This document shows positions 1,353 through 13,552 of a stretch of DNA of 64,000 bases, piece after piece. The notes under the pieces were generated by a model. It was not told the origin of the DNA and made no database searches. It saw only the letters and a list, made by a program, of their open reading frames with translations. Source of the stretch: Candidatus Caccoplasma merdavium. GTDB lineage: Bacteria; Bacteroidota; Bacteroidia; Bacteroidales; UBA11471. The stretch's first letter is position 1. Every line of letters starts with the position of its first letter. Made by a program: the position numbers and the translations under genes. Location of the stretch: the NCBI GenBank assembly GCA_018715595.1, contig DVLI01000017.1, positions 1 to 64,000 of the forward strand. The letters run 5' to 3'.

Positions 1353-2141
1353 TTATTTACAGACATATTTTTCATGGAATTGTTTCATCATGTCGATAAA
1401 TTCATTAGGAAGTCTTTCCAGTACTTCTTTTTTTATGTATGCCGGTATCTCCTTGTAAAAAGCCTCTGCTATTCCACCTGTTATTGCTCCCATTGTATCA
1501 GCATCTCCATTTAATGATATTGCTAAACGTATGGCACTTTCATAATCTGTACTTTCCAAAAACGCAATAATTGATTCTGGTACAGTTCCCTGACATGTTT
1601 CAACAAACCGATAATTTTTTCTTATCTCATTACAAGTTCTTCTAAGGTTATAGCCAAAATTCTTTTCAATATATTGCTTTATTACTTGTTTGGACTTCCC
1701 TATACGTGCCATAAAAATTGAAGTGGCTACAGCTTGTGCTCCTTTTATTCCTTCCGGATGGTTGTGTGTAACCTCTGCACTTTGTTTAGCTGCGTTTAGT
1801 GTTTCTTCTAATGTGTCAAAAGCCCATCCTACTGGACTAACCCTCATTGCAGAACCATTTCCAAAGCTGTTGTATGGTTTTGGGTCATTCTCTCGAAGCC
1901 ATTCAAAAAAGGAACTTCCATATCCTACTCCAATATAGCGATTACCATAGTCCTGCATAATTCCTAATAAGCTGTCTCCTGTCAGTAGCCAATCAGCATT
2001 TGCAACGGTCATCACCGTGTCATCAGTAAAATGGGATGAATCACCGTTGAAGAGTTTGAAATCAATTGTTTTTACAGGGCAGAACTCATAATATGAACCT
2101 ATTACGTCACCAGCAATTGCACCTAATAAAATATCATTCAT
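1353..2141 (-). CDS. ADP-ribosylglycohydrolase family protein
   Basis: A 262-residue protein of the DraG/ARH fold, which removes ADP-ribose from proteins or small molecules using two Mg2+ ions. Visible family signatures are GAIAGDVIGS (residues 7-16), TDDTVMT (39-45, first metal-binding cluster), GNGSAMR (94-100), a His-rich NHPEG segment (127-131) and DADTMGAITGGIAEA (213-227, second metal-binding cluster). The full domain is present, so it should be active, and it has no signal peptide, so it is cytoplasmic. A spacer repeat lies 24 nt upstream of the ATG and another 90 nt behind the stop, so the gene is framed like a cassette. Hydrolases of this fold can serve as immunity proteins against ADP-ribosylating interbacterial toxins (Tri1 type). 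That role here is inference from family and context; a nucleotide-metabolism role is the alternative. Confidence 0.85.
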   Translation of the reverse strand: MNDILLGAIAGDVIGSYYEFCPVKTIDFKLFNGDSSHFTDDTVMTVANADWLLTGDSLLGIMQDYGNRYIGVGYGSSFFEWLRENDPKPYNSFGNGSAMRVSPVGWAFDTLEETLNAAKQSAEVTHNHPEGIKGAQAVATSIFMARIGKSKQVIKQYIEKNFGYNLRRTCNEIRKNYRFVETCQGTVPESIIAFLESTDYESAIRLAISLNGDADTMGAITGGIAEAFYKEIPAYIKKEVLERLPNEFIDMMKQFHEKYVCK

Positions 2142-2165
2142 AACTAATTCATTTTAAAATCAATA

Positions 2166-2224
2166 TAGAGAACCTTTTTCAAAATTCCCCTATAAAACAG
2201 ACTTCCTTCAAAAAATGTACTCCT
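2166..2224 (-). repeat. Spacer repeat, copy 2
   Basis: Core CCCCTATAAAACAG at 2187-2200, flanked by T-rich and A-rich arms. It ends 24 nt upstream of the ADP-ribosylglycohydrolase start codon. Confidence 0.75.
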
Positions 2225-2323
2225 TCTCAAATACTACAAGGTAAGCCTTATTTCCTCGAATACCATAAAAAGGCAACTCTATCCTATTCTCTAATTATTG
2301 TGAGAAGTAAAGAAATGAGAAAA

Positions 2324-2354
2324 GCGTAACGAAGGGATAAAATATTCGTTGCGT
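2324..2354 (+). terminator. Hairpin, possible terminator
   Basis: A 10-bp stem with one G-U pair (2324-2333 with 2345-2354) and an 11-nt loop, followed on the plus strand by a T-rich run. No plus-strand gene ends here, so its role is unclear; it may be left over from a lost gene. Confidence 0.35.
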
Positions 2355-2506
2355 TTTATTTTTCTATTAGGGTAGCTAAGAAGAACCATGTATGTCAAAC
2401 AGCACAAATGTTTAGTTTATCTTTTCATGTTGTAAGTGATAGGAATGATTTGTAGTTAGACCGTATATTACAGTGGCTTGCATTATGAATTGCGCCTATT
2501 TTATGG

Positions 2507-2914
2507 TTATAACTCTACAACACAATAACACCACATGACATTTAGAAACTCTACATATATCTCAAATTCTCCAGATTTTCTTTGTAATATCCTTAAGATA
2601 CCTGAGTCTTTGTCTTGGTCAATAAATTTAATAACTATATGATAATCTCCATCTGAATCATAGAATGAGGTAACAAATTCTTGCAGATGATATACTTGAG
2701 CAATAGGAGAATATATAGTTGCAATATCTGTATCAAAGTTTATCGTTAGCAACATATCTGACGATTCCCATTCACTCCATCCTGACCAAGAAGATGTATA
2801 AGTATTATATGAATTTGTAGAAAATGCTACAGTTCGATAATGTAGTGTTTGGGAATAAGATGATATTCCCATAAGAAGAAATATAGCAATAAACAGTCTG
2901 GTTTTCATTTTCAC
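2507..2914 (-). CDS. Small secreted protein of unknown function
   Basis: A 135-residue protein with an N-terminal signal peptide (cleavage probably after the SSYSQ segment, near residue 22). The mature part has many aromatic and beta-prone residues, with a SWSGWSEWESS stretch followed by alternating hydrophobic strands, so a small periplasmic or surface beta-sandwich is likely. I do not recognise the family. Spacer repeat copy 3 ends 21 nt upstream of the start codon, so the gene follows the cassette pattern. Base composition is AT-rich like the rest of the island. A periplasmic immunity protein is one possibility given the neighbours, but nothing in the sequence proves it. Confidence 0.65.
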   Translation of the reverse strand: MKMKTRLFIAIFLLMGISSYSQTLHYRTVAFSTNSYNTYTSSWSGWSEWESSDMLLTINFDTDIATIYSPIAQVYHLQEFVTSFYDSDGDYHIVIKFIDQDKDSGILRILQRKSGEFEIYVEFLNVMWCYCVVEL

Positions 2915-2935
2915 AATAGTTTATATCTAGGCGAT

Positions 2936-2988
2936 AGTACTTTTTTCAAATTCTCCCTATAAAACAGGATTCTTAGAAAAAAGTACCT
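2936..2988 (-). repeat. Spacer repeat, copy 3 (best-formed inverted repeat)
   Basis: The arms 2937-2947 and 2976-2986 are perfectly complementary over 11 bp (GTACTTTTTTC) around a 28-nt spacer carrying TTCTCCCTATAAAACAG. It begins 21 nt upstream of the 2507-2914 start and ends 15 nt behind the stop of the next gene, so it fills the whole junction. Confidence 0.8.
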
Positions 2989-3003
2989 TTATGCCCATAA
3001 TAT

Positions 3004-3615
3004 TTATTCAGGTCTGAATCCCTTTATCTCAATTCTTTCCTTTTGTTCTAGTTCTTTGCTCAACGTGCTAAATTCACCCTGTACTTTCTGCAGGGCAAGA
3101 AAGAAACCGTTTAACATAGATTTTAGATATACTTTATAATCAGGGATGTCATAAGCAAAATATATTGCTATTTTGCAAAATGCAATAATACTCCCTTCCT
3201 CTTTTCTTATAGTATATAAACTTGTAATGGCACAACACTCATTTGCCTTATTAATAGCATGTTTTAAACTATCTGCATTAGGATCATTTATCCCAATTTC
3301 TATCCATGGAGAACTATAAATCCAAATGAAAGGAGTGTCATTATTTGCGCTTATGGAAAAAGTTTCTCCTTGGTATGCGAAGACTATAAAATTCTCATCG
3401 TCTATCTCATATTGGCAACCTATGTCTGTTAATGTTTTCAACAAAAAATTCCTTGTCTGATACTCGTCTTTATTTTTGGCATTGTTAAAGACTTCATTTG
3501 TTTTTTCATAATCAGACTTTCCTTTCTTGCCTTTTTTGTCGGCAGCTCTCTTTTTTCTAACAATATACGTGATAGCCATTACGATAAGACATAATACTAC
3601 AAGTCCAGATTCCAT
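3004..3615 (-). CDS. Membrane-anchored protein of unknown function
   Basis: A 203-residue protein. Residues 4-19 form one transmembrane helix, followed at once by a strongly basic stretch (RKKRAADKKGKKGK), which by the positive-inside rule puts the rest in the cytoplasm. The soluble domain alternates strands and helices (NFLLKTLTDIGCQYEIDDENFIVFAYQGETFSI is not shown in full here; its start and end are near residues 56 and 88). It loosely resembles the small alpha/beta folds of secretion-chaperone or YbjN-like proteins, but I do not assign it. The gene lies between spacer repeat copies 3 and 4. A role as an inner-membrane-tethered immunity protein is speculative. Confidence 0.6.
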   Translation of the reverse strand: MESGLVVLCLIVMAITYIVRKKRAADKKGKKGKSDYEKTNEVFNNAKNKDEYQTRNFLLKTLTDIGCQYEIDDENFIVFAYQGETFSISANNDTPFIWIYSSPWIEIGINDPNADSLKHAINKANECCAITSLYTIRKEEGSIIAFCKIAIYFAYDIPDYKVYLKSMLNGFFLALQKVQGEFSTLSKELEQKERIEIKGFRPE

Positions 3616-3679
3616 ATCAATTGATATTTTTAGTTTGTTTTTAGTACTTAAAATTCTTCTATTTCTTCGTTATAAGTTC

Positions 3680-3734
3680 AGAGGACTTTTAAAATTCACT
3701 CTATAATACTGGTATTTCTTCTAAAAATGTTCCC
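3680..3734 (-). repeat. Spacer repeat, copy 4
   Basis: Diverged copy (core CACTCTATAATAC at 3697-3709). It starts 5 nt behind the stop codon of the small lipoprotein gene and ends 64 nt upstream of the 3004-3615 start. Confidence 0.6.
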
Positions 3735-3739
3735 TTGTT

Positions 3740-3961
3740 TTATATCCGATTTTCAATCTGTTCAAATGGAAAATCCATTTTGCCATTCTCATAAAACGAA
3801 ATGCTGTCAAGAGCATTTACATAGCCACTTCCATATTCTACCATTTCCCATTTGCCAACTATCAGGTTGTCAATGGAAACAGATTGTTGCTTGTTGTCAC
3901 AACTCCAAATAAGTAGCAAAGTAAGCATCGTAAAATAGAATGGTATTTGTTTCATCTGCAT
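3740..3961 (-). CDS. Short lipoprotein, probably a truncated lipocalin-like protein
   Basis: A 73-residue product with a lipoprotein signal (hydrophobic helix ending in LLLIWSC, Cys at residue 21). The start of a small beta-barrel follows: LIVGKWEMVEYGSG, then DSISFYENGKMDFPF. The 'xxGxWxxxxY ... F..NG.......' pattern is typical of lipocalin-like lipoproteins of Bacteroidota, which usually run to 120 residues or more. Here the frame stops shortly after the second strand, and a spacer repeat begins 5 nt later. The gene therefore looks cut off exactly at a repeat boundary, as if the 3' part had been replaced during a recombination event. A naturally short protein cannot be excluded. Confidence 0.55.
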   Translation of the reverse strand: MQMKQIPFYFTMLTLLLIWSCDNKQQSVSIDNLIVGKWEMVEYGSGYVNALDSISFYENGKMDFPFEQIENRI

Positions 3962-3994
3962 ATCTACTTTTGAATTTTATCTGTTCTTAATTAT

Positions 3995-4049
3995 AGTAAA
4001 ACTTTTTCTTGACTGTCTATATAAATAGAAATTTGTTCAAAAAGATTTC
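3995..4049 (-). repeat. Spacer repeat, copy 5 (weak)
   Basis: The most divergent copy. The position, the CTATATAAA core near 4016-4024 and the T-rich/A-rich arms are kept. It overlaps the stop codon of the zinc-ribbon gene and ends 33 nt upstream of the short lipoprotein gene. Confidence 0.45.
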
Positions 4050-4350
4050 AGCAAATATCATCCCATAGAACTGTCTGAATCATTTTCTTACCACACACAG
4101 GACAACCCTTATCCCATTTCTGCATCTTGGCTGTACAACATTTTGATAATGGAAATTCTCCGGTTTGTTCCTTTTCATAAGGGACATTAATGCTCTCCAC
4201 CTTTTTACACGCAGGGCATTGAAGTTGGATATAGTTGTATTCAGAGAACAACCTACCACCCTCTGACAACCTATCTATGGTATATCCACAATCGGGACAT
4301 TCGTATTTATAAAAGGTATGTGACATATTCGATATTTTGATTGATTGCAA
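4048..4350 (-). CDS. Small multi-zinc-ribbon protein
   Basis: A protein of up to 100 residues with four Cys pairs: CPDC (about residue 19), CPAC (about 46), a CC pair (about 71) and CPVC (about 84). Together they would form two zinc ribbons, the first enclosing a short GGRLFSEYNY hairpin. No other domain is visible. Such proteins are cytoplasmic and often bind nucleic acid or act as small adaptors; no specific role can be assigned. A second in-frame ATG at 4326 (MSHTFYK) begins just before the first Cys pair and may be the true start. The gene follows 33 nt behind the 4384-5238 gene and ends inside spacer repeat copy 5. Confidence 0.65.
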   Translation of the reverse strand: MQSIKISNMSHTFYKYECPDCGYTIDRLSEGGRLFSEYNYIQLQCPACKKVESINVPYEKEQTGEFPLSKCCTAKMQKWDKGCPVCGKKMIQTVLWDDIC

Positions 4351-4383
4351 ACTCTATTTATTGAGCGATTTAGGATTAATTGG

Positions 4384-5238
4384 TCATTGCTTCTCTAATT
4401 CTTCCTCTATGTATAACTCTGTGTTTTCATGAATAGAAATAACTTCCATTTTTTTAGCTTCAACTTTTATAGCATTTCCACAAGTGAAGGTCAGAGTGTC
4501 AGCGTGTTCTTGAATTTTGTTAGTAGGATAAAATCTTATTAAAGCAGTTTCACTACTTCTAATAGAAAAACATTCTAATTCGTGGAATCTAAAACGAACA
4601 TCTTTATTTATATATTCCATTTGTTTTGTTTTAGGTTCATATGTCTGACAATCACCCGTAATGGTAAGCTCTATTTCTTTATGAGTTTCTTCTTTAATTA
4701 CAACATTAGATATTCTATATGGGTTATAAGGCATATCGCATCCGTTAATAAGAATGTCTAATCCTTTTATTGTCTTTTCTTTATTCAGTAAATATGGATA
4801 TATTGAAGAGTCAATTTTGCAATTATTCCTTACTTCGTTGTGTAGATTGAGAATATATAGTTGTTTAACATAGTAATCTCTTATCTCTTCTGACTTTGTT
4901 GTTTTTATAACTTCTGTATATATATATTTCTGCTTCTCATAATCACCTGTTTGTGGCATTGCACAACATATCAAATCATAGAAATCAATTTTATCACGAA
5001 TAGGCTGTGCCATTTGAAAAGCAGCTATTATATTGGCACAGCAAAAATCTTCAAACATTTTATCTTTTAAACTTCTGAAATCATCATATCCCCAATATGC
5101 AATAGGTATTGGAACTGTAAAAGGACGTGCAAGCATAAAATCCTTTCTACACTTTTCTATTGTGTTTTGCACACCACTCTCGAAAAGTGCTTTAATGATT
5201 TCTATCCTATTGTTTTTTACTAATTCATTCCAAACCAT
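4384..5238 (-). CDS. Cytoplasmic protein of unknown function
   Basis: A 284-residue protein with no signal peptide or membrane segment. The first 150 residues look helical (WNELVKNNRIEIIKALFESG at the start). The last 130 look like a beta-sandwich with alternating polar and hydrophobic residues, ending in a charged EEELEKQ tail. I recognise no family. The two-part architecture and location in the cassette row fit an orphan immunity or defence-related protein, but this is context only. The 33-nt gap to the downstream zinc-ribbon gene suggests co-transcription. There is no spacer repeat on either side of this gene. Confidence 0.6.
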   Translation of the reverse strand: MVWNELVKNNRIEIIKALFESGVQNTIEKCRKDFMLARPFTVPIPIAYWGYDDFRSLKDKMFEDFCCANIIAAFQMAQPIRDKIDFYDLICCAMPQTGDYEKQKYIYTEVIKTTKSEEIRDYYVKQLYILNLHNEVRNNCKIDSSIYPYLLNKEKTIKGLDILINGCDMPYNPYRISNVVIKEETHKEIELTITGDCQTYEPKTKQMEYINKDVRFRFHELECFSIRSSETALIRFYPTNKIQEHADTLTFTCGNAIKVEAKKMEVISIHENTELYIEEELEKQ

Positions 5239-5310
5239 TGTAAAGTCTAAATGTTAATCATAATTATGGAAGTATTGATATATGGCACAATCAAAACAGA
5301 ATCTTCACAT

Positions 5311-5592
5311 TCACTTCAATGCACGAACTATCATCGAAAATATGATAAAAGCAATGACAACTGCAATTATGGATGCTAAACATCCTCTACCGTTGGTATC
5401 GTTATTATTCTTCTTGAACGCATTATAAGCACCATAACCAATAAAAGCCAAGATAATGAAAAACCATATCGGACTGAATGAAGAATCTCCATCACGGACA
5501 GAATAATCTCTTCCGTAATCGTCCCGACCAGCAAAAGCATTCACTATGGTTAAGAAGCAACCTAAGCAACTGACTAATAGTTTTTTAATCAT
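5311..5592 (-). CDS. Small membrane protein of unknown function
   Basis: A 93-residue protein with an N-terminal signal peptide (MIKKLLVSCLGCFLTIVNAFA), a short charged periplasmic loop rich in Asp, Arg and Tyr, and two hydrophobic helices (about residues 41-57 and 73-89) separated by a polar KKNNNDTNGRG turn. It could be a two-helix inner-membrane protein. Small membrane proteins of this layout occur among immunity proteins to membrane-targeting toxins, but no family assignment is possible. It lies 23 nt behind the 5616-6224 gene, suggesting that the two are transcribed together. Confidence 0.6.
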   Translation of the reverse strand: MIKKLLVSCLGCFLTIVNAFAGRDDYGRDYSVRDGDSSFSPIWFFIILAFIGYGAYNAFKKNNNDTNGRGCLASIIAVVIAFIIFSMIVRALK

Positions 5593-5615: not shown

Positions 5616-6224
5616 TCAACGAGAAGTATAGCAAACATTTTCTGCAAAATATCCATTCAAAATTCGTATTGTGCAAGGGATTTGTCCTGAATACCCCTCA
5701 CGGCATATTTTACCATGAACTCGTTCTTCTTCAAAATAAATATGTTTATTTCCTATAAACTGGACTAGTCCTTGTAAAACTTCTCTTAATGTAATATATG
5801 GAATAGCTTTTCTAATTAAGTCGAAAACATAAGTATTTATAGTCCCTTTGGGGCTATAAACCACACCATCATTAAATCGCCCTTTTGTAAGCAATCTTCG
5901 AACATCTAAACGTAATGTTTTGTGTGTGGATAGAGATATTAGATTAATCCCTGTAATGGGTGCACAATCCTGTTCTGAAAAAACAGGTTTGTCGTAACCA
6001 TATTCTGTACTGATTCCTCTACACCAAGCATAGGGTTGATTTGCAAGATAAAATCGTTCATTTATCGGTACATCTATAAAATAGTCTACATTAGCACCAT
6101 ATTTTTTTATGAACTCTCCCCAGGGGATATTTCCTCCTACCCCCATGAAATTAGTCAAACCTCTATTTATGTATTCATCTATCTGCGTTTGACTATAATA
6201 ATAAGCAGCTTGAAGCCTTGCCAT
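5616..6224 (-). CDS. Protein of unknown function, possibly the remnant of a larger protein
   Basis: A 202-residue product without signal peptide. An in-frame TGA lies four codons upstream of the ATG, so the coding region cannot extend further at the N-terminus. The sequence is rich in Tyr, Arg and Asn and contains WGEFIKKYGANVDYFID and VVYSPKGTINTYVFDLI segments with no family that I recognise. Upstream lies the large imperfect palindrome at 6279-6499. Its abrupt start next to that structure leaves open that it is the C-terminal piece of a longer toxin or effector. It is also compatible with an intact cytoplasmic immunity protein co-transcribed with the small membrane protein gene 23 nt downstream. 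Confidence 0.55.
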   Translation of the reverse strand: MARLQAAYYYSQTQIDEYINRGLTNFMGVGGNIPWGEFIKKYGANVDYFIDVPINERFYLANQPYAWCRGISTEYGYDKPVFSEQDCAPITGINLISLSTHKTLRLDVRRLLTKGRFNDGVVYSPKGTINTYVFDLIRKAIPYITLREVLQGLVQFIGNKHIYFEEERVHGKICREGYSGQIPCTIRILNGYFAENVCYTSR

Positions 6225-6606
6225 ACGGAGCTTTCATCGTCCCTCATCCTCCATTGGAACGGCTAAGTTATTATATGCGAAAAGCGTGAGGACTGTATCT
6301 TGCTTATCCTCTTATCGGGCTTCTCGCATTGCCTATGGAGTGGATAAGCAACAGCCACTCACGCCATGCGAGTATATAGTTCTCCCTTTCGGGATAGTAT
6401 ATATCCGTAGCGTGAGCGTTGTTGCTACCCATCCTACTCCATATCCAATTTTGCGAGAATTCGATAAGAAGGACGAGTTCAATAACGCTCTTCGTTCTCT
6501 TATGTCTGACAACCTTTCGGAAGTCAGCCACAAAGTTAGCAAAAAAGCGTTGAATATCTGTATCTAAATGAAATATATTTGCTGAATCCTGCTAAATAAC
6601 AGTATT
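6225..6606. other. Gene-free stretch dominated by a long palindrome
   Basis: Open frames exist on both strands here, but they mirror each other because the sequence is a long imperfect inverted repeat (6279-6499), so none is taken as a gene. The remainder is AT-rich linker on both sides. Confidence 0.55.
6279..6499. repeat. 221-bp imperfect palindrome
   Basis: The left arm, 6279-6366, and the right arm, 6409-6499, are complementary with small gaps: matching blocks include CTTATCG, TTCTCGCA, TATGGAGT, GGAT, AGCAACA and CTCACGC. The central 42 nt hold a further hairpin (CCC TTTC GGG flanked by TATA arms). A transcript would fold into one rod about 90 bp long. It could be a structured RNA, an inverted duplication of an older element, or a recombination or replication site. 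By-eye alignment only. Confidence 0.6.
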
Positions 6607-6879
6607 TTAGATGAAAGACAAATGTGTATCATCCAACAGACCACTTTCTACTATCCTTTTACAAAGCTCATGTGAAGCCCTGTTTCTAAGGTCTGTCCCA
6701 TAGTTCTCACTGCCCACCATTCTTATTATGGCAACAACTGTCCTTATTAAATTCTGCTGCAAAGTCCGGTGAAAGCACCTTGTACTTTCTGCAAATAGCG
6801 CAGGATTCCAGCCATAATCATTCAAGGCTCTTTCCAAGTCTTGTGCAGCCTTGTATTCACGTGTATTCTGTATGTCCAT
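6607..6879 (-). CDS. Small cytoplasmic protein of unknown function
   Basis: A 90-residue, mostly helical, charged protein without signal peptide or membrane segment (EYKAAQDLERALNDYGW near the start, ELCKRIVESGLLDDTHLSFI at the end). No family is recognised. It is the last gene of the backbone module on the minus strand, separated from the DUF3871-type gene by about 100 nt that contain a terminator-like hairpin (6920-6952). Similar short helical proteins are common beside DUF3871 genes on Bacteroidales mobile elements; that statement is from general familiarity, not a search. Confidence 0.6.
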   Translation of the reverse strand: MDIQNTREYKAAQDLERALNDYGWNPALFAESTRCFHRTLQQNLIRTVVAIIRMVGSENYGTDLRNRASHELCKRIVESGLLDDTHLSFI

Positions 6880-6919
6880 TTTTGTATTGTTTATTACTAT
6901 ATTTATAAGAGTGTCAGGA

Positions 6920-8432: not shown

Positions 8433-8476
8433 AAGAAATAGAGTAAAATTGAATGTCAGTAAGAGTTTCTTGTTGA

Positions 8477-8532
8477 GAGTACCTTTTTTTTGATTCTCCC
8501 TATAAAACAGACAATCAATGAAAAAAGTCCTT
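8477..8532 (-). repeat. Spacer repeat, copy 6
   Basis: Core TTCTCCCTATAAAACAG (8494-8510), nearly identical to copy 3, with arms carrying GTACC-T-run and A-run-GTCCTT. It starts 5 nt behind the helicase-like stop codon, showing that the repeat also occurs at the edge of the backbone module. Confidence 0.75.
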
Positions 8533-8537
8533 GTCTT

Positions 8538-10411: not shown

Positions 10412-10912
10412 TTATCTAATCAATCCTCTTTCTCGCAAATAGCTTGTGATTTCCTCGTCACGTTCCATAAAGAAAAGGACAGTTCCGTTACGGAAATTGG
10501 CTACTGCTGTGAGCTTGCCAGTCCTGTCCCGAAATTCAGGGGTAAACTGAATGTTACCTATTCCGTTTTCCACAAACAGCTTCAACATTTCTTTGCGGAA
10601 CTTGTTGGCATCCCTTTCTTCGGACTTGGCTACTGCATCGGGCTTCACGTTGAAGTCCTCGGTTTCACCTTTCATCAGATAGTTCATCACCCATGCAAAT
10701 GCTTCTTGGTCGATTTGATAGGCAAAGTTCTTGGTTGTCTTGCTTTCCACTCTAATTGCTTCATAGCCGTATCGGTCTATGGTGAAGTAGAGGGTCAATC
10801 TCTCATTGCGATTCATCATCGCTTTCAACTCTGTGTGAGCTGCCGTATTATCATACGACTGTTCTACTTGGGGATTTATCCCCTCAAAATTGTATTTCAT
10901 CATACCAATCAA
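10412..10912 (-). CDS. Conserved-looking protein of unknown function
   Basis: A protein of 162-166 residues without signal peptide. The second ATG (MMKYNFEG, or the next Met) may be the true start, because the first residues MIG add nothing to the fold. The middle reads RLTLYFTIDRYGYEAIRV, a beta-hairpin-like stretch, followed by helices and a C-terminal region FRNGTVLFFMERDEEITSYL. No family recognised. It is the gene immediately upstream of the helicase-like protein in the same direction and may form a functional pair with it. A possible -7 box with one mismatch (GACCTTTG, complement at 10989-10996) lies upstream. Confidence 0.6.
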   Translation of the reverse strand: MIGMMKYNFEGINPQVEQSYDNTAAHTELKAMMNRNERLTLYFTIDRYGYEAIRVESKTTKNFAYQIDQEAFAWVMNYLMKGETEDFNVKPDAVAKSEERDANKFRKEMLKLFVENGIGNIQFTPEFRDRTGKLTAVANFRNGTVLFFMERDEEITSYLRERGLIR

Positions 10913-12189: not shown

Positions 12190-13392
12190 TTAAAGTAGTG
12201 ATTTCATCGCTTCATCAATCTGCTCATTGTCAAAGCTGTCAAGATAGATTTGCGTCACTCTTTCAGAACTATGCCCCATTATTTCACGAATTACTGCTGT
12301 GGGAACACCTGCTTTCTTCATCACTGTTGCTTGGCTGTGCCGGGCAACGTATGTCGTAAGTGGTATAGGCAGGTTCAGTTCTTCGCCAATCTCTTTCAGC
12401 CGTTTGTTTACTTTGGCAATAACCTTATGAATGCGGTTGGACTTTTGTATCTCTGTCTTGTGAAAGGATGAGAGAATGGGAAAAAGGTATGGGCTCTCTT
12501 TGCGATGGTATTTCTTTATGAGTTCCAGTGCTTGTGGTTGCAAGGGAATCTTTATCAACTTGCCTGTTTTGTGACGTTTGTAAACGAGCTTGTCCTCTAT
12601 GAGGTTTGCCGGAGTGAGGTGCGCAATATCTATAAAGTTTATCCCACCACAATAGTAGGTAAACGCAAAGATGTCTATCGGGAATCTCATATAACGGTTG
12701 GTCGACTTGTAGGCCAGAACGCGTTCCACGTCAGCTTTTGACAGAGACCGTTTCACTGTTTCTTCATGCAGTCGTGACACCTTGAATTTCTTGAATGGGT
12801 AACAATCCGGTGAAACTGCATCATCTTCCATTGCCACATTATAAATAGCTCGTAAGGTGCGAAAGCGTATGCCGATGGTGTTCTCTGCCAACCGCTTTTC
12901 CCGTAAAAACAACTCGTAACGTTTCAGCCAAGCCACATCCATTTCAGAAAAATAGAAGTCAAGACTGTGGCAAAACTCTTTGAGGGAGTTATGCAGTTGC
13001 TTGACGGATAAAGCGTAGTTCCTACGACCTGTCTTTATAAGGGAAGTGATGTGTCCATGAAAAATATCTTCCACCGTCTTACGGTTGGTACGCTTTACGC
13101 AGACTTTTTCTACAAGCGAAGTAGGGGTGAACTCTTGATAGGTTGCTTTGAGCTCAATAATTTTAGCGGAGTATTCCTTGATTTTATCCGCTATGAGCAT
13201 TTCGATGTACTCACGATTGGGACAATCTGCTTTTGGCTCATTCTTAAGAAAGTCCCAATGTGCAGGATTTACGGATATGCCAAGACTGACATATTTCCGT
13301 TTTCTGTCTTTTGTCACTCTCAACATTAGAGGTGATTCATTGTTACTAAGTACTTTGGACTTGTAACAAACGGCTTTTACTGTAATTCCCAC
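12190..13392 (-). CDS. Tyrosine recombinase (island integrase)
   Basis: A 400-residue integrase. The arm-binding beta domain is at about residues 3-50 (GITVKAVCYKS onward), the SAM-like core-binding domain at about 105-205, and the catalytic domain at about 215-395. Catalytic residues visible are Lys in the beta-hairpin YKRHKTGK (about 272-278), Arg351 in ARHSQAT, His374 in MGHSS and the nucleophile Tyr383 in QIYLDSF. At the first catalytic Arg position the protein has CGGINF (248-253), so that Arg appears replaced by Gly. IntDOT-type Bacteroides integrases also lack this Arg. The frame starts with GTG at 13392, placed so that the arm domain is complete. The gene lies 106 bp from the att core and two bases from the paired GTTTACAC sites. 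It most likely catalyses integration into tRNA-Lys, and possibly shuffling at the spacer repeats. Confidence 0.9.
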   Translation of the reverse strand: MGITVKAVCYKSKVLSNNESPLMLRVTKDRKRKYVSLGISVNPAHWDFLKNEPKADCPNREYIEMLIADKIKEYSAKIIELKATYQEFTPTSLVEKVCVKRTNRKTVEDIFHGHITSLIKTGRRNYALSVKQLHNSLKEFCHSLDFYFSEMDVAWLKRYELFLREKRLAENTIGIRFRTLRAIYNVAMEDDAVSPDCYPFKKFKVSRLHEETVKRSLSKADVERVLAYKSTNRYMRFPIDIFAFTYYCGGINFIDIAHLTPANLIEDKLVYKRHKTGKLIKIPLQPQALELIKKYHRKESPYLFPILSSFHKTEIQKSNRIHKVIAKVNKRLKEIGEELNLPIPLTTYVARHSQATVMKKAGVPTAVIREIMGHSSERVTQIYLDSFDNEQIDEAMKSLL

Positions 13393-13452: not shown

Positions 13453-13485
13453 TAAAAAAAGAGTCGCACATTAATGTGCAACTCT
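13453..13485 (-). terminator. Terminator of the intact tRNA-Lys
   Basis: On the minus strand an 11-bp stem with one mismatch-type G-T pair (13485-13475 with 13470-13460) and a TTAA loop runs into seven T residues. It is island DNA and replaces the original tRNA terminator now found at 763-793. Confidence 0.8.
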
Positions 13486-13497
13486 CTGAAAATCAAA

Positions 13498-13552
13498 TGT
13501 GACCCCGGAGGGGCTCGAACCCTCGACCCAATGATTAAGAGTCATTTGCTCT
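13498..13552. repeat. Right attachment-site direct repeat (attR core)
   Basis: Identical over 55 bp to 795-849. It forms the 3' two-thirds of the intact tRNA-Lys gene. Confidence 0.85.

Follow-up and report, generated by a model that had tools for sequence, protein, structure and literature searches.

What is the long palindrome that separates the backbone of a mobile element from its cargo genes in Candidatus Caccoplasma merdavium? The window analysed here is a stretch of 64,000 nt (assembly GCA_018715595.1, contig DVLI01000017.1, positions 1-64,000, forward strand). It contains a 12.7-kb element integrated in tRNA-Lys(CTT) and bounded by a 55-bp perfect direct repeat of the tRNA 3' end (795-849 and 13498-13552); these repeats are the attachment sites of an integrative element. 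The element consists of a tyrosine integrase (12190-13392), a backbone including DUF3871, the palindrome and a row of co-oriented cargo genes. The initial annotation described a 221-bp imperfect palindrome at 6279-6499 and offered four options for it: a primary recombination site, an integron-like attI, an RNA gene or the scar of an inverted duplication. We find that the palindrome is one copy of a structured RNA present throughout Bacteroidales and encoded here on the minus strand, in the same sense as the cargo genes that follow it. The RNA option is retained, as a leader and not as a free-standing RNA gene, and the other three are set aside.

The palindrome is found at the coordinates originally described, where a covariance model matches 6279-6488 on the minus strand, and folding reproduces the further hairpin proposed for its centre. 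It lies, as had been noted, between the backbone (DUF3871 and a 90-aa gene) and the cargo row. Both strands of 6270-6510 fold far outside the range of dinucleotide shuffles, with a minimum free energy of -98.4 kcal/mol on the plus strand (z -8.4) and -103.1 kcal/mol on the minus strand (z -9.4); none of 200 shuffles was as good in either case. Two overlapping open frames run through the palindrome on the minus strand and one on the plus strand. They had been regarded as by-products, and we agree, as the base pairing is conserved and the frames are not. The unit is larger than first thought, since it includes a promoter-like box, a 5' hairpin and, at about 6240-6260, a D motif that precedes the cargo start codon at 6224, Table 1.

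Table 1. Parts of the leader and its operon in the window, in the order of the minus strand.
Feature	Position	Strand	Basis
Promoter-like Bacteroidetes -7 box TAACTTTG (TAnnTTTG)	6531-6538	-	Putative promoter; motif in most copies
5' hairpin of the leader (CTGACTTCCGAAAGGTTGTCAG)	6503-6530	-	Read from the sequence
Segment A, 5' strand of the outer rod stem	6474-6491	-	A:A' duplex energy
V1, hypervariable helix strand 5' of box L	6462-6469	-	Pairs with V1'; mutual information
Box L (AATTCTCGCAAAATTG in the window), 5' half of the conserved core	6446-6461	-	Conservation; helix part covaries
V2, hypervariable helix strand 3' of box L	6436-6445	-	Comparison with L013
Segment B', rod partner of B	6410-6435	-	B':B duplex
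Segment B (GGCGTGAGTGGCTGTTGCTTATCC), in both exclusive folds	6342-6365	-	Pairs with B' or A', locus-specific
V2', partner of V2	6334-6341	-	Sequence and mutual information
Box R GGCAATGCGAGAAGCC, 3' half of the conserved core	6318-6333	-	Exact matches in at least 119 stretches
V1', partner of V1	6310-6317	-	Mutual information
Segment A', 3' arm of the terminator, pairs with B, A or D	6284-6309	-	Duplex energies
U-run (4 U) behind the terminator-like hairpin	6280-6283	-	Sequence; U-run in other copies
D motif, complementary to A', shortly upstream of the start codon	6240-6262	-	Sequence; duplex energy
First gene behind the leader (202 aa), without a known family	5616-6224	-	Start 109 nt after the start of box R
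Remaining co-oriented cargo row, seven ORFs, the last an ADP-ribosylglycohydrolase	1353-5592	-	ORF list; family search

Homologous palindromes, which the initial annotation proposed to look for in other genomes, are found in many copies across Bacteroidales. Searched at the DNA level, 198 relatives yielded a single copy at 88% (L002) and two more at 71-74%, together with several half matches, in which two short boxes are constant and the adjoining arms are different. The exact matches to box R come from genome contigs of a collection that represents each GTDB species by a single genome. With up to four mismatches allowed, box L (AATTCTCGCAAAATTT) lies 94-227 nt upstream of box R in 106 of 130 copies among the matches listed, and at least about 100 copies have exact core boxes. 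By record title nearly all two-box copies are from Bacteroidales; the few MAGs of other groups with both boxes, again among the matches listed (Pseudoflavonifractor, Pseudobutyrivibrio, Akkermansia), may be mis-binned. The covariance model, built from 35 copies, has 79 matches in 23 of the 198 genomes of the order, with a maximum of nine in one genome. About 290 genomes of other orders have none: in a sample of the phylum comprising 297 genomes, almost all of them outside the order, the sole match is the window itself. One diverged copy is located on a Phocaeicola plasmid. An origin in phages was rejected, as there is no match in the phage collection and box L is present in only two of 24 IMG/VR stretches with box R.

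A known RNA family is ruled out by Rfam 15 at both thresholds used: at gathering score only tRNAs are found in the window and 22 relative loci, and a lax scan of 6150-6700 gives matches at chance level. The box sequence is absent from the open-licence papers searched, although a description elsewhere is possible, and two recent papers on ncRNA discovery do not mention Bacteroides. Judged from its sequences, the family is strongly conserved, statistically very well supported and undescribed in Rfam 15 and in the open-licence literature searched.

To locate the pairing we calculated the mutual information of all 12,810 column pairs around both boxes in 97 distinct copies (among the matches listed). 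The arms covary, as the initial annotation had suggested examining: the six highest pairs join L-2 to L-7 with R+17 to R+22 in one antiparallel register, a result that is independent of any alignment to the model. In an independent set of 63 matches, mostly from the covariance-model search and with no boxes required, 97.4% of the cells are paired, and changes on both sides are seen in 16 of 18 pairs, with the qualification that this set, a few members of which overlap the box-based one, was aligned to the model and the model's pairs are therefore favoured. Here 159 cells changed on both sides, compared with 36.8 after shuffling (reached in 0 of 500 shuffles), and sliding the partners by one to three columns abolishes the signal.

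In the wider family all helices covary, including the central helix made by the boxes, with the alleles TTCTCGCA/TGCGAGAA, TCTGGCA/TGCCAGA, TCTAGCA/TGCTAGA, TCGAAC/GTTCGA and CCTGAGAA/TTCTCAGG. The constant part is an internal-loop frame, GA-AA-helix-AANTTTC / GGCAA-helix'-GCC-TC. Such a constant loop frame with variable paired helices is the signature of a structured RNA and not of a recombinase site of fixed sequence. Box L positions are 82-100% conserved in 102 copies among the matches listed, though box L was not used when the collection was searched. In a related element, L013, V2 and V2' differ from the window at most positions with the pairing kept, in flanking DNA that is 94% identical. 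A conserved core within covarying helices, as expected of a riboswitch, is thus present. The scarcity of G-U pairs in V1 (26 of 679 cells, compared with 16 A-C) counts against reading the element as an RNA leader. The idea that V1 and V2 are guides was dropped, as their matches to flanks or cargo are no more frequent than in permuted loci.

The same changes bear on the proposal of an inverted-duplication scar or a MITE-like transposable hairpin. The element is multi-copy and palindromic, and it is present after a flippase gene in three congeneric genomes with no match there in four others searched. However, the compensatory changes contradict such an origin, the loop nucleotides are conserved and the relation to genes is fixed; we find it barely credible. 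Nor do the arms look like two copies of a gene or insertion sequence that have lost their pairing, as the pairing is conserved.

The strand of the RNA is apparent from comparison of the copies. Of 97 copies among the matches listed, 94 have the better fold on the sense strand (mean -98.4 vs -84.3), as do 61 of 62 independent copies; this is expected if the RNA uses G-U pairs. TAnnTTTG is the Bacteroidetes -7 box known from the literature on Bacteroides promoters. It occurs at the corresponding place in 59 of 95 copies among the matches listed, against 9 of 95 in antisense, and upstream of 48 of 61 independent copies, against 7 of 61, which suggests that it serves as a promoter. Hairpins of other sequence occupy the place of the 5' hairpin in L014, L015, L079 and L081. 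At the other end, a run of at least five U is present in 51 of 62 independent copies, with the start codon usually 40 to 60 nt beyond it. A downstream start codon is found in 49 of 62 independent copies, compared with 42% at random positions, and among the matches listed the first ORF mostly starts 102-119 nt after the start of box R. A structured leader on the sense strand therefore stands directly upstream of a gene, which is also the arrangement of a riboswitch.

Segment B takes part in two folds, with B' in a long rod or with A' in a hairpin followed by the U-run. The duplex energy of B':B is -25.20, against -21.32 (sd 0.32) in permuted loci, and that of B:A' is -27.92, against -21.84 (sd 0.35), i.e. 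12 and 17 SD beyond the permuted values, though the permutation mixes subfamilies and part of the excess reflects subfamily differences and not covariation at single loci. Locus specificity is weaker for A:A' (-11.39 vs -9.96, sd 0.21) and A':D (-12.56 vs -11.27, sd 0.22), and the control pairings A-B, A-D and B'-A' show none relative to permuted loci. Both folds are thus conserved by comparison, and the putative expression platform would exclude the core fold in the manner of a riboswitch, as B can pair with either B' or A'. In the window the B:A' hairpin has -38.3 kcal/mol (z -5.7) and ends in GCGUUUU; a simple terminator scan did not call this hairpin with its run of four U. At equilibrium the rod is more stable, -99.8 compared with about -85.5 for the terminator domain plus the 5' part, so termination would have to be kinetic or assisted.

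We consider it likely that the palindrome encodes, on the minus strand, a 5' leader RNA with two states that attenuates transcription in the manner of a riboswitch. The transcript would begin near 6525, and the nascent RNA could form the long rod that assembles the conserved internal-loop core. Alternatively, B would leave B' and pair with A', giving the strong hairpin and U-run and a stop at about 6280. A recogniser of the rod core, be it a metabolite, a protein or an RNA, would hold the transcript in the rod state, so that transcription could continue into the cargo operon from 6224. D is transcribed after the U-run, and its role is not accounted for, which speaks against this explanation. 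As in intrinsic-terminator attenuators, a hairpin and U-run lie between promoter-like box and start codon, and one strand of the leader has alternative pairings; unlike them, the leader contains no leader peptide recognised by eye and has D as an extra downstream element competing for A'.

The promoter-like box, the compact structure and the U-run would also suit a transcript of about 245 nt, i.e. a free-standing small RNA that has a promoter and a terminator to itself, acts in trans and merely lies upstream of genes. We think this improbable, as the distance to the downstream start codon is near-constant, the complementarity of A' to D before the downstream gene is locus-specific and the many paralogues of a genome each precede another gene.

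The genes behind the leader are very different from each other. Among the matches listed, 86 first ORFs form 58 clusters, and no Pfam or PADLOC family dominates the downstream proteins, i.e. the functionally coherent gene set expected of a riboswitch is not seen. A signal-peptide-like N-terminus, called by a simple hydrophobicity rule, is found in 0.55 and 0.51 of the first genes, compared with 0.19 of the upstream genes. With its two competing folds the leader probably switches very different genes on or off, exported proteins being the commonest kind and the cargo of a mobile element the case in the window. A role as a marker of defence islands was rejected, since the PADLOC matches of downstream proteins are few and scattered. 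A small HTH-like protein (..LIKEELERQGRTVxWFAK..NCxRxNVYxIF..) recurs as the first gene in L045, L061, L101, L109, L225, L236 and L246; this family is a possible clue to the regulon.

Weinberg et al. 2010 (PMC2864571) list the orphan riboswitch candidates Bacteroidales-1, Bacteroides-1 and Bacteroid-trp. With riboswitches and such candidates the leader shares its position 5' of a gene, a conserved core in covarying helices and a core fold that excludes a terminator-like hairpin. It differs in having no match in Rfam 15, a rod of about 210-280 nt, unrelated downstream genes and no known ligand. A new Bacteroidales riboswitch class, with a very long rod-shaped aptamer domain and one common signal for up to nine operons per genome, portable before exported proteins and mobile-element cargo, is a tentative reading. 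Somewhat doubtful, too, is a leader that is not a metabolite sensor and instead is a processive-antitermination or RNA-binding-protein element, similar to put, EAR or the targets of NusG paralogues. Conserved internal-loop nucleotides in freely covarying helices would suit a protein site, and the unrelated downstream genes speak against a single metabolite. NusG is matched by two downstream proteins, but these are just 2 of 113 among the matches listed, and no partner gene was identified.

In the window the RNA is the leader of the element's cargo operon, and two comparisons suggest how cargo and leader are combined. Immediately behind the D motif the cargo of the window differs from that of L013, and sequence similarity between the two ends just past the motif. 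In L143 and L144 (G003:C7 and G005:C29), from a related genus, a near-identical leader is found at the same chromosomal site after the flippase gene, and the first small gene is wholly exchanged with both flanks kept. In both cases the leader stays and the cargo behind it is exchanged. L013 has a 195-aa tyrosine recombinase at the junction that the window lacks; there the homologous stretches on either side meet at 6603/6607. This protein, a catalytic domain only, is located directly 5' of the leader in L013 (7414-8001), L015 (12065-12652), L079, L081, L135 and L032.

The palindrome could accordingly be thought of as an attI/attC-like site that this recombinase uses to load cargo cassettes, as the protein is 87-100% identical over the matched part in these six independent loci and cargo differs directly behind the leader. 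A long imperfect palindrome beside a tyrosine recombinase and before variable cargo is indeed reminiscent of integrons in a few loci. Yet a recombinase is nearby in only 7 of 106 loci among the matches listed, and none adjoins the window copy. The aligned copies have no invariant boxes of the integron core (RYYYAAC / GTTRRRY), and the covarying central helix leaves no fixed sequence for a recombinase to bind. Cassette arrays of repeated palindromes are absent, many copies precede ordinary chromosomal genes, and the promoter-like box and strong RNA polarity tie the element to the gene downstream. We regard a recombination site as highly improbable. In layout, the island in the window resembles the rAID clusters of Bacteroidales (PMC12247911), as short genes in a co-oriented row accompany a tyrosine recombinase. 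It differs in that no immunity-type family was found in the cargo of the window and that the leader also precedes ordinary chromosomal genes.

Two further observations concern the element. A 59-nt intergenic motif on the minus strand, GGTACTTTTTTC...CTGTTTTATAGGGAGAATTTGAAAAAAGTACT, is found in the window at 1210-1268, 2168-2226, 2935-2993 and about 8472-8536, recurring in the gaps between cargo genes with one occurrence in the backbone, and in L013 at 10765-10823 and 13471-13529. It could be a cassette boundary or a bidirectional terminator. As a cassette repeat belonging to the leader it was rejected, being a different motif that lies in the neighbourhood of leader copies only in the window and L013. 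In L013, at 6020-6884, integrase residues 1-261 are followed at once by the C-terminal tail of DUF3871, which looks as though the two backbone genes had been fused by an internal deletion.

Bacteroidales are a dominant order among gut bacteria, and both states of the switch formed by their leader RNA can be read from covariation. With the covariance model and the core consensus, the family is open to direct tests. Its signal, once found, would explain how a scattered set of exported proteins is controlled in Bacteroidales, and also how mobile elements put new cargo under a switch that is compatible with the host.
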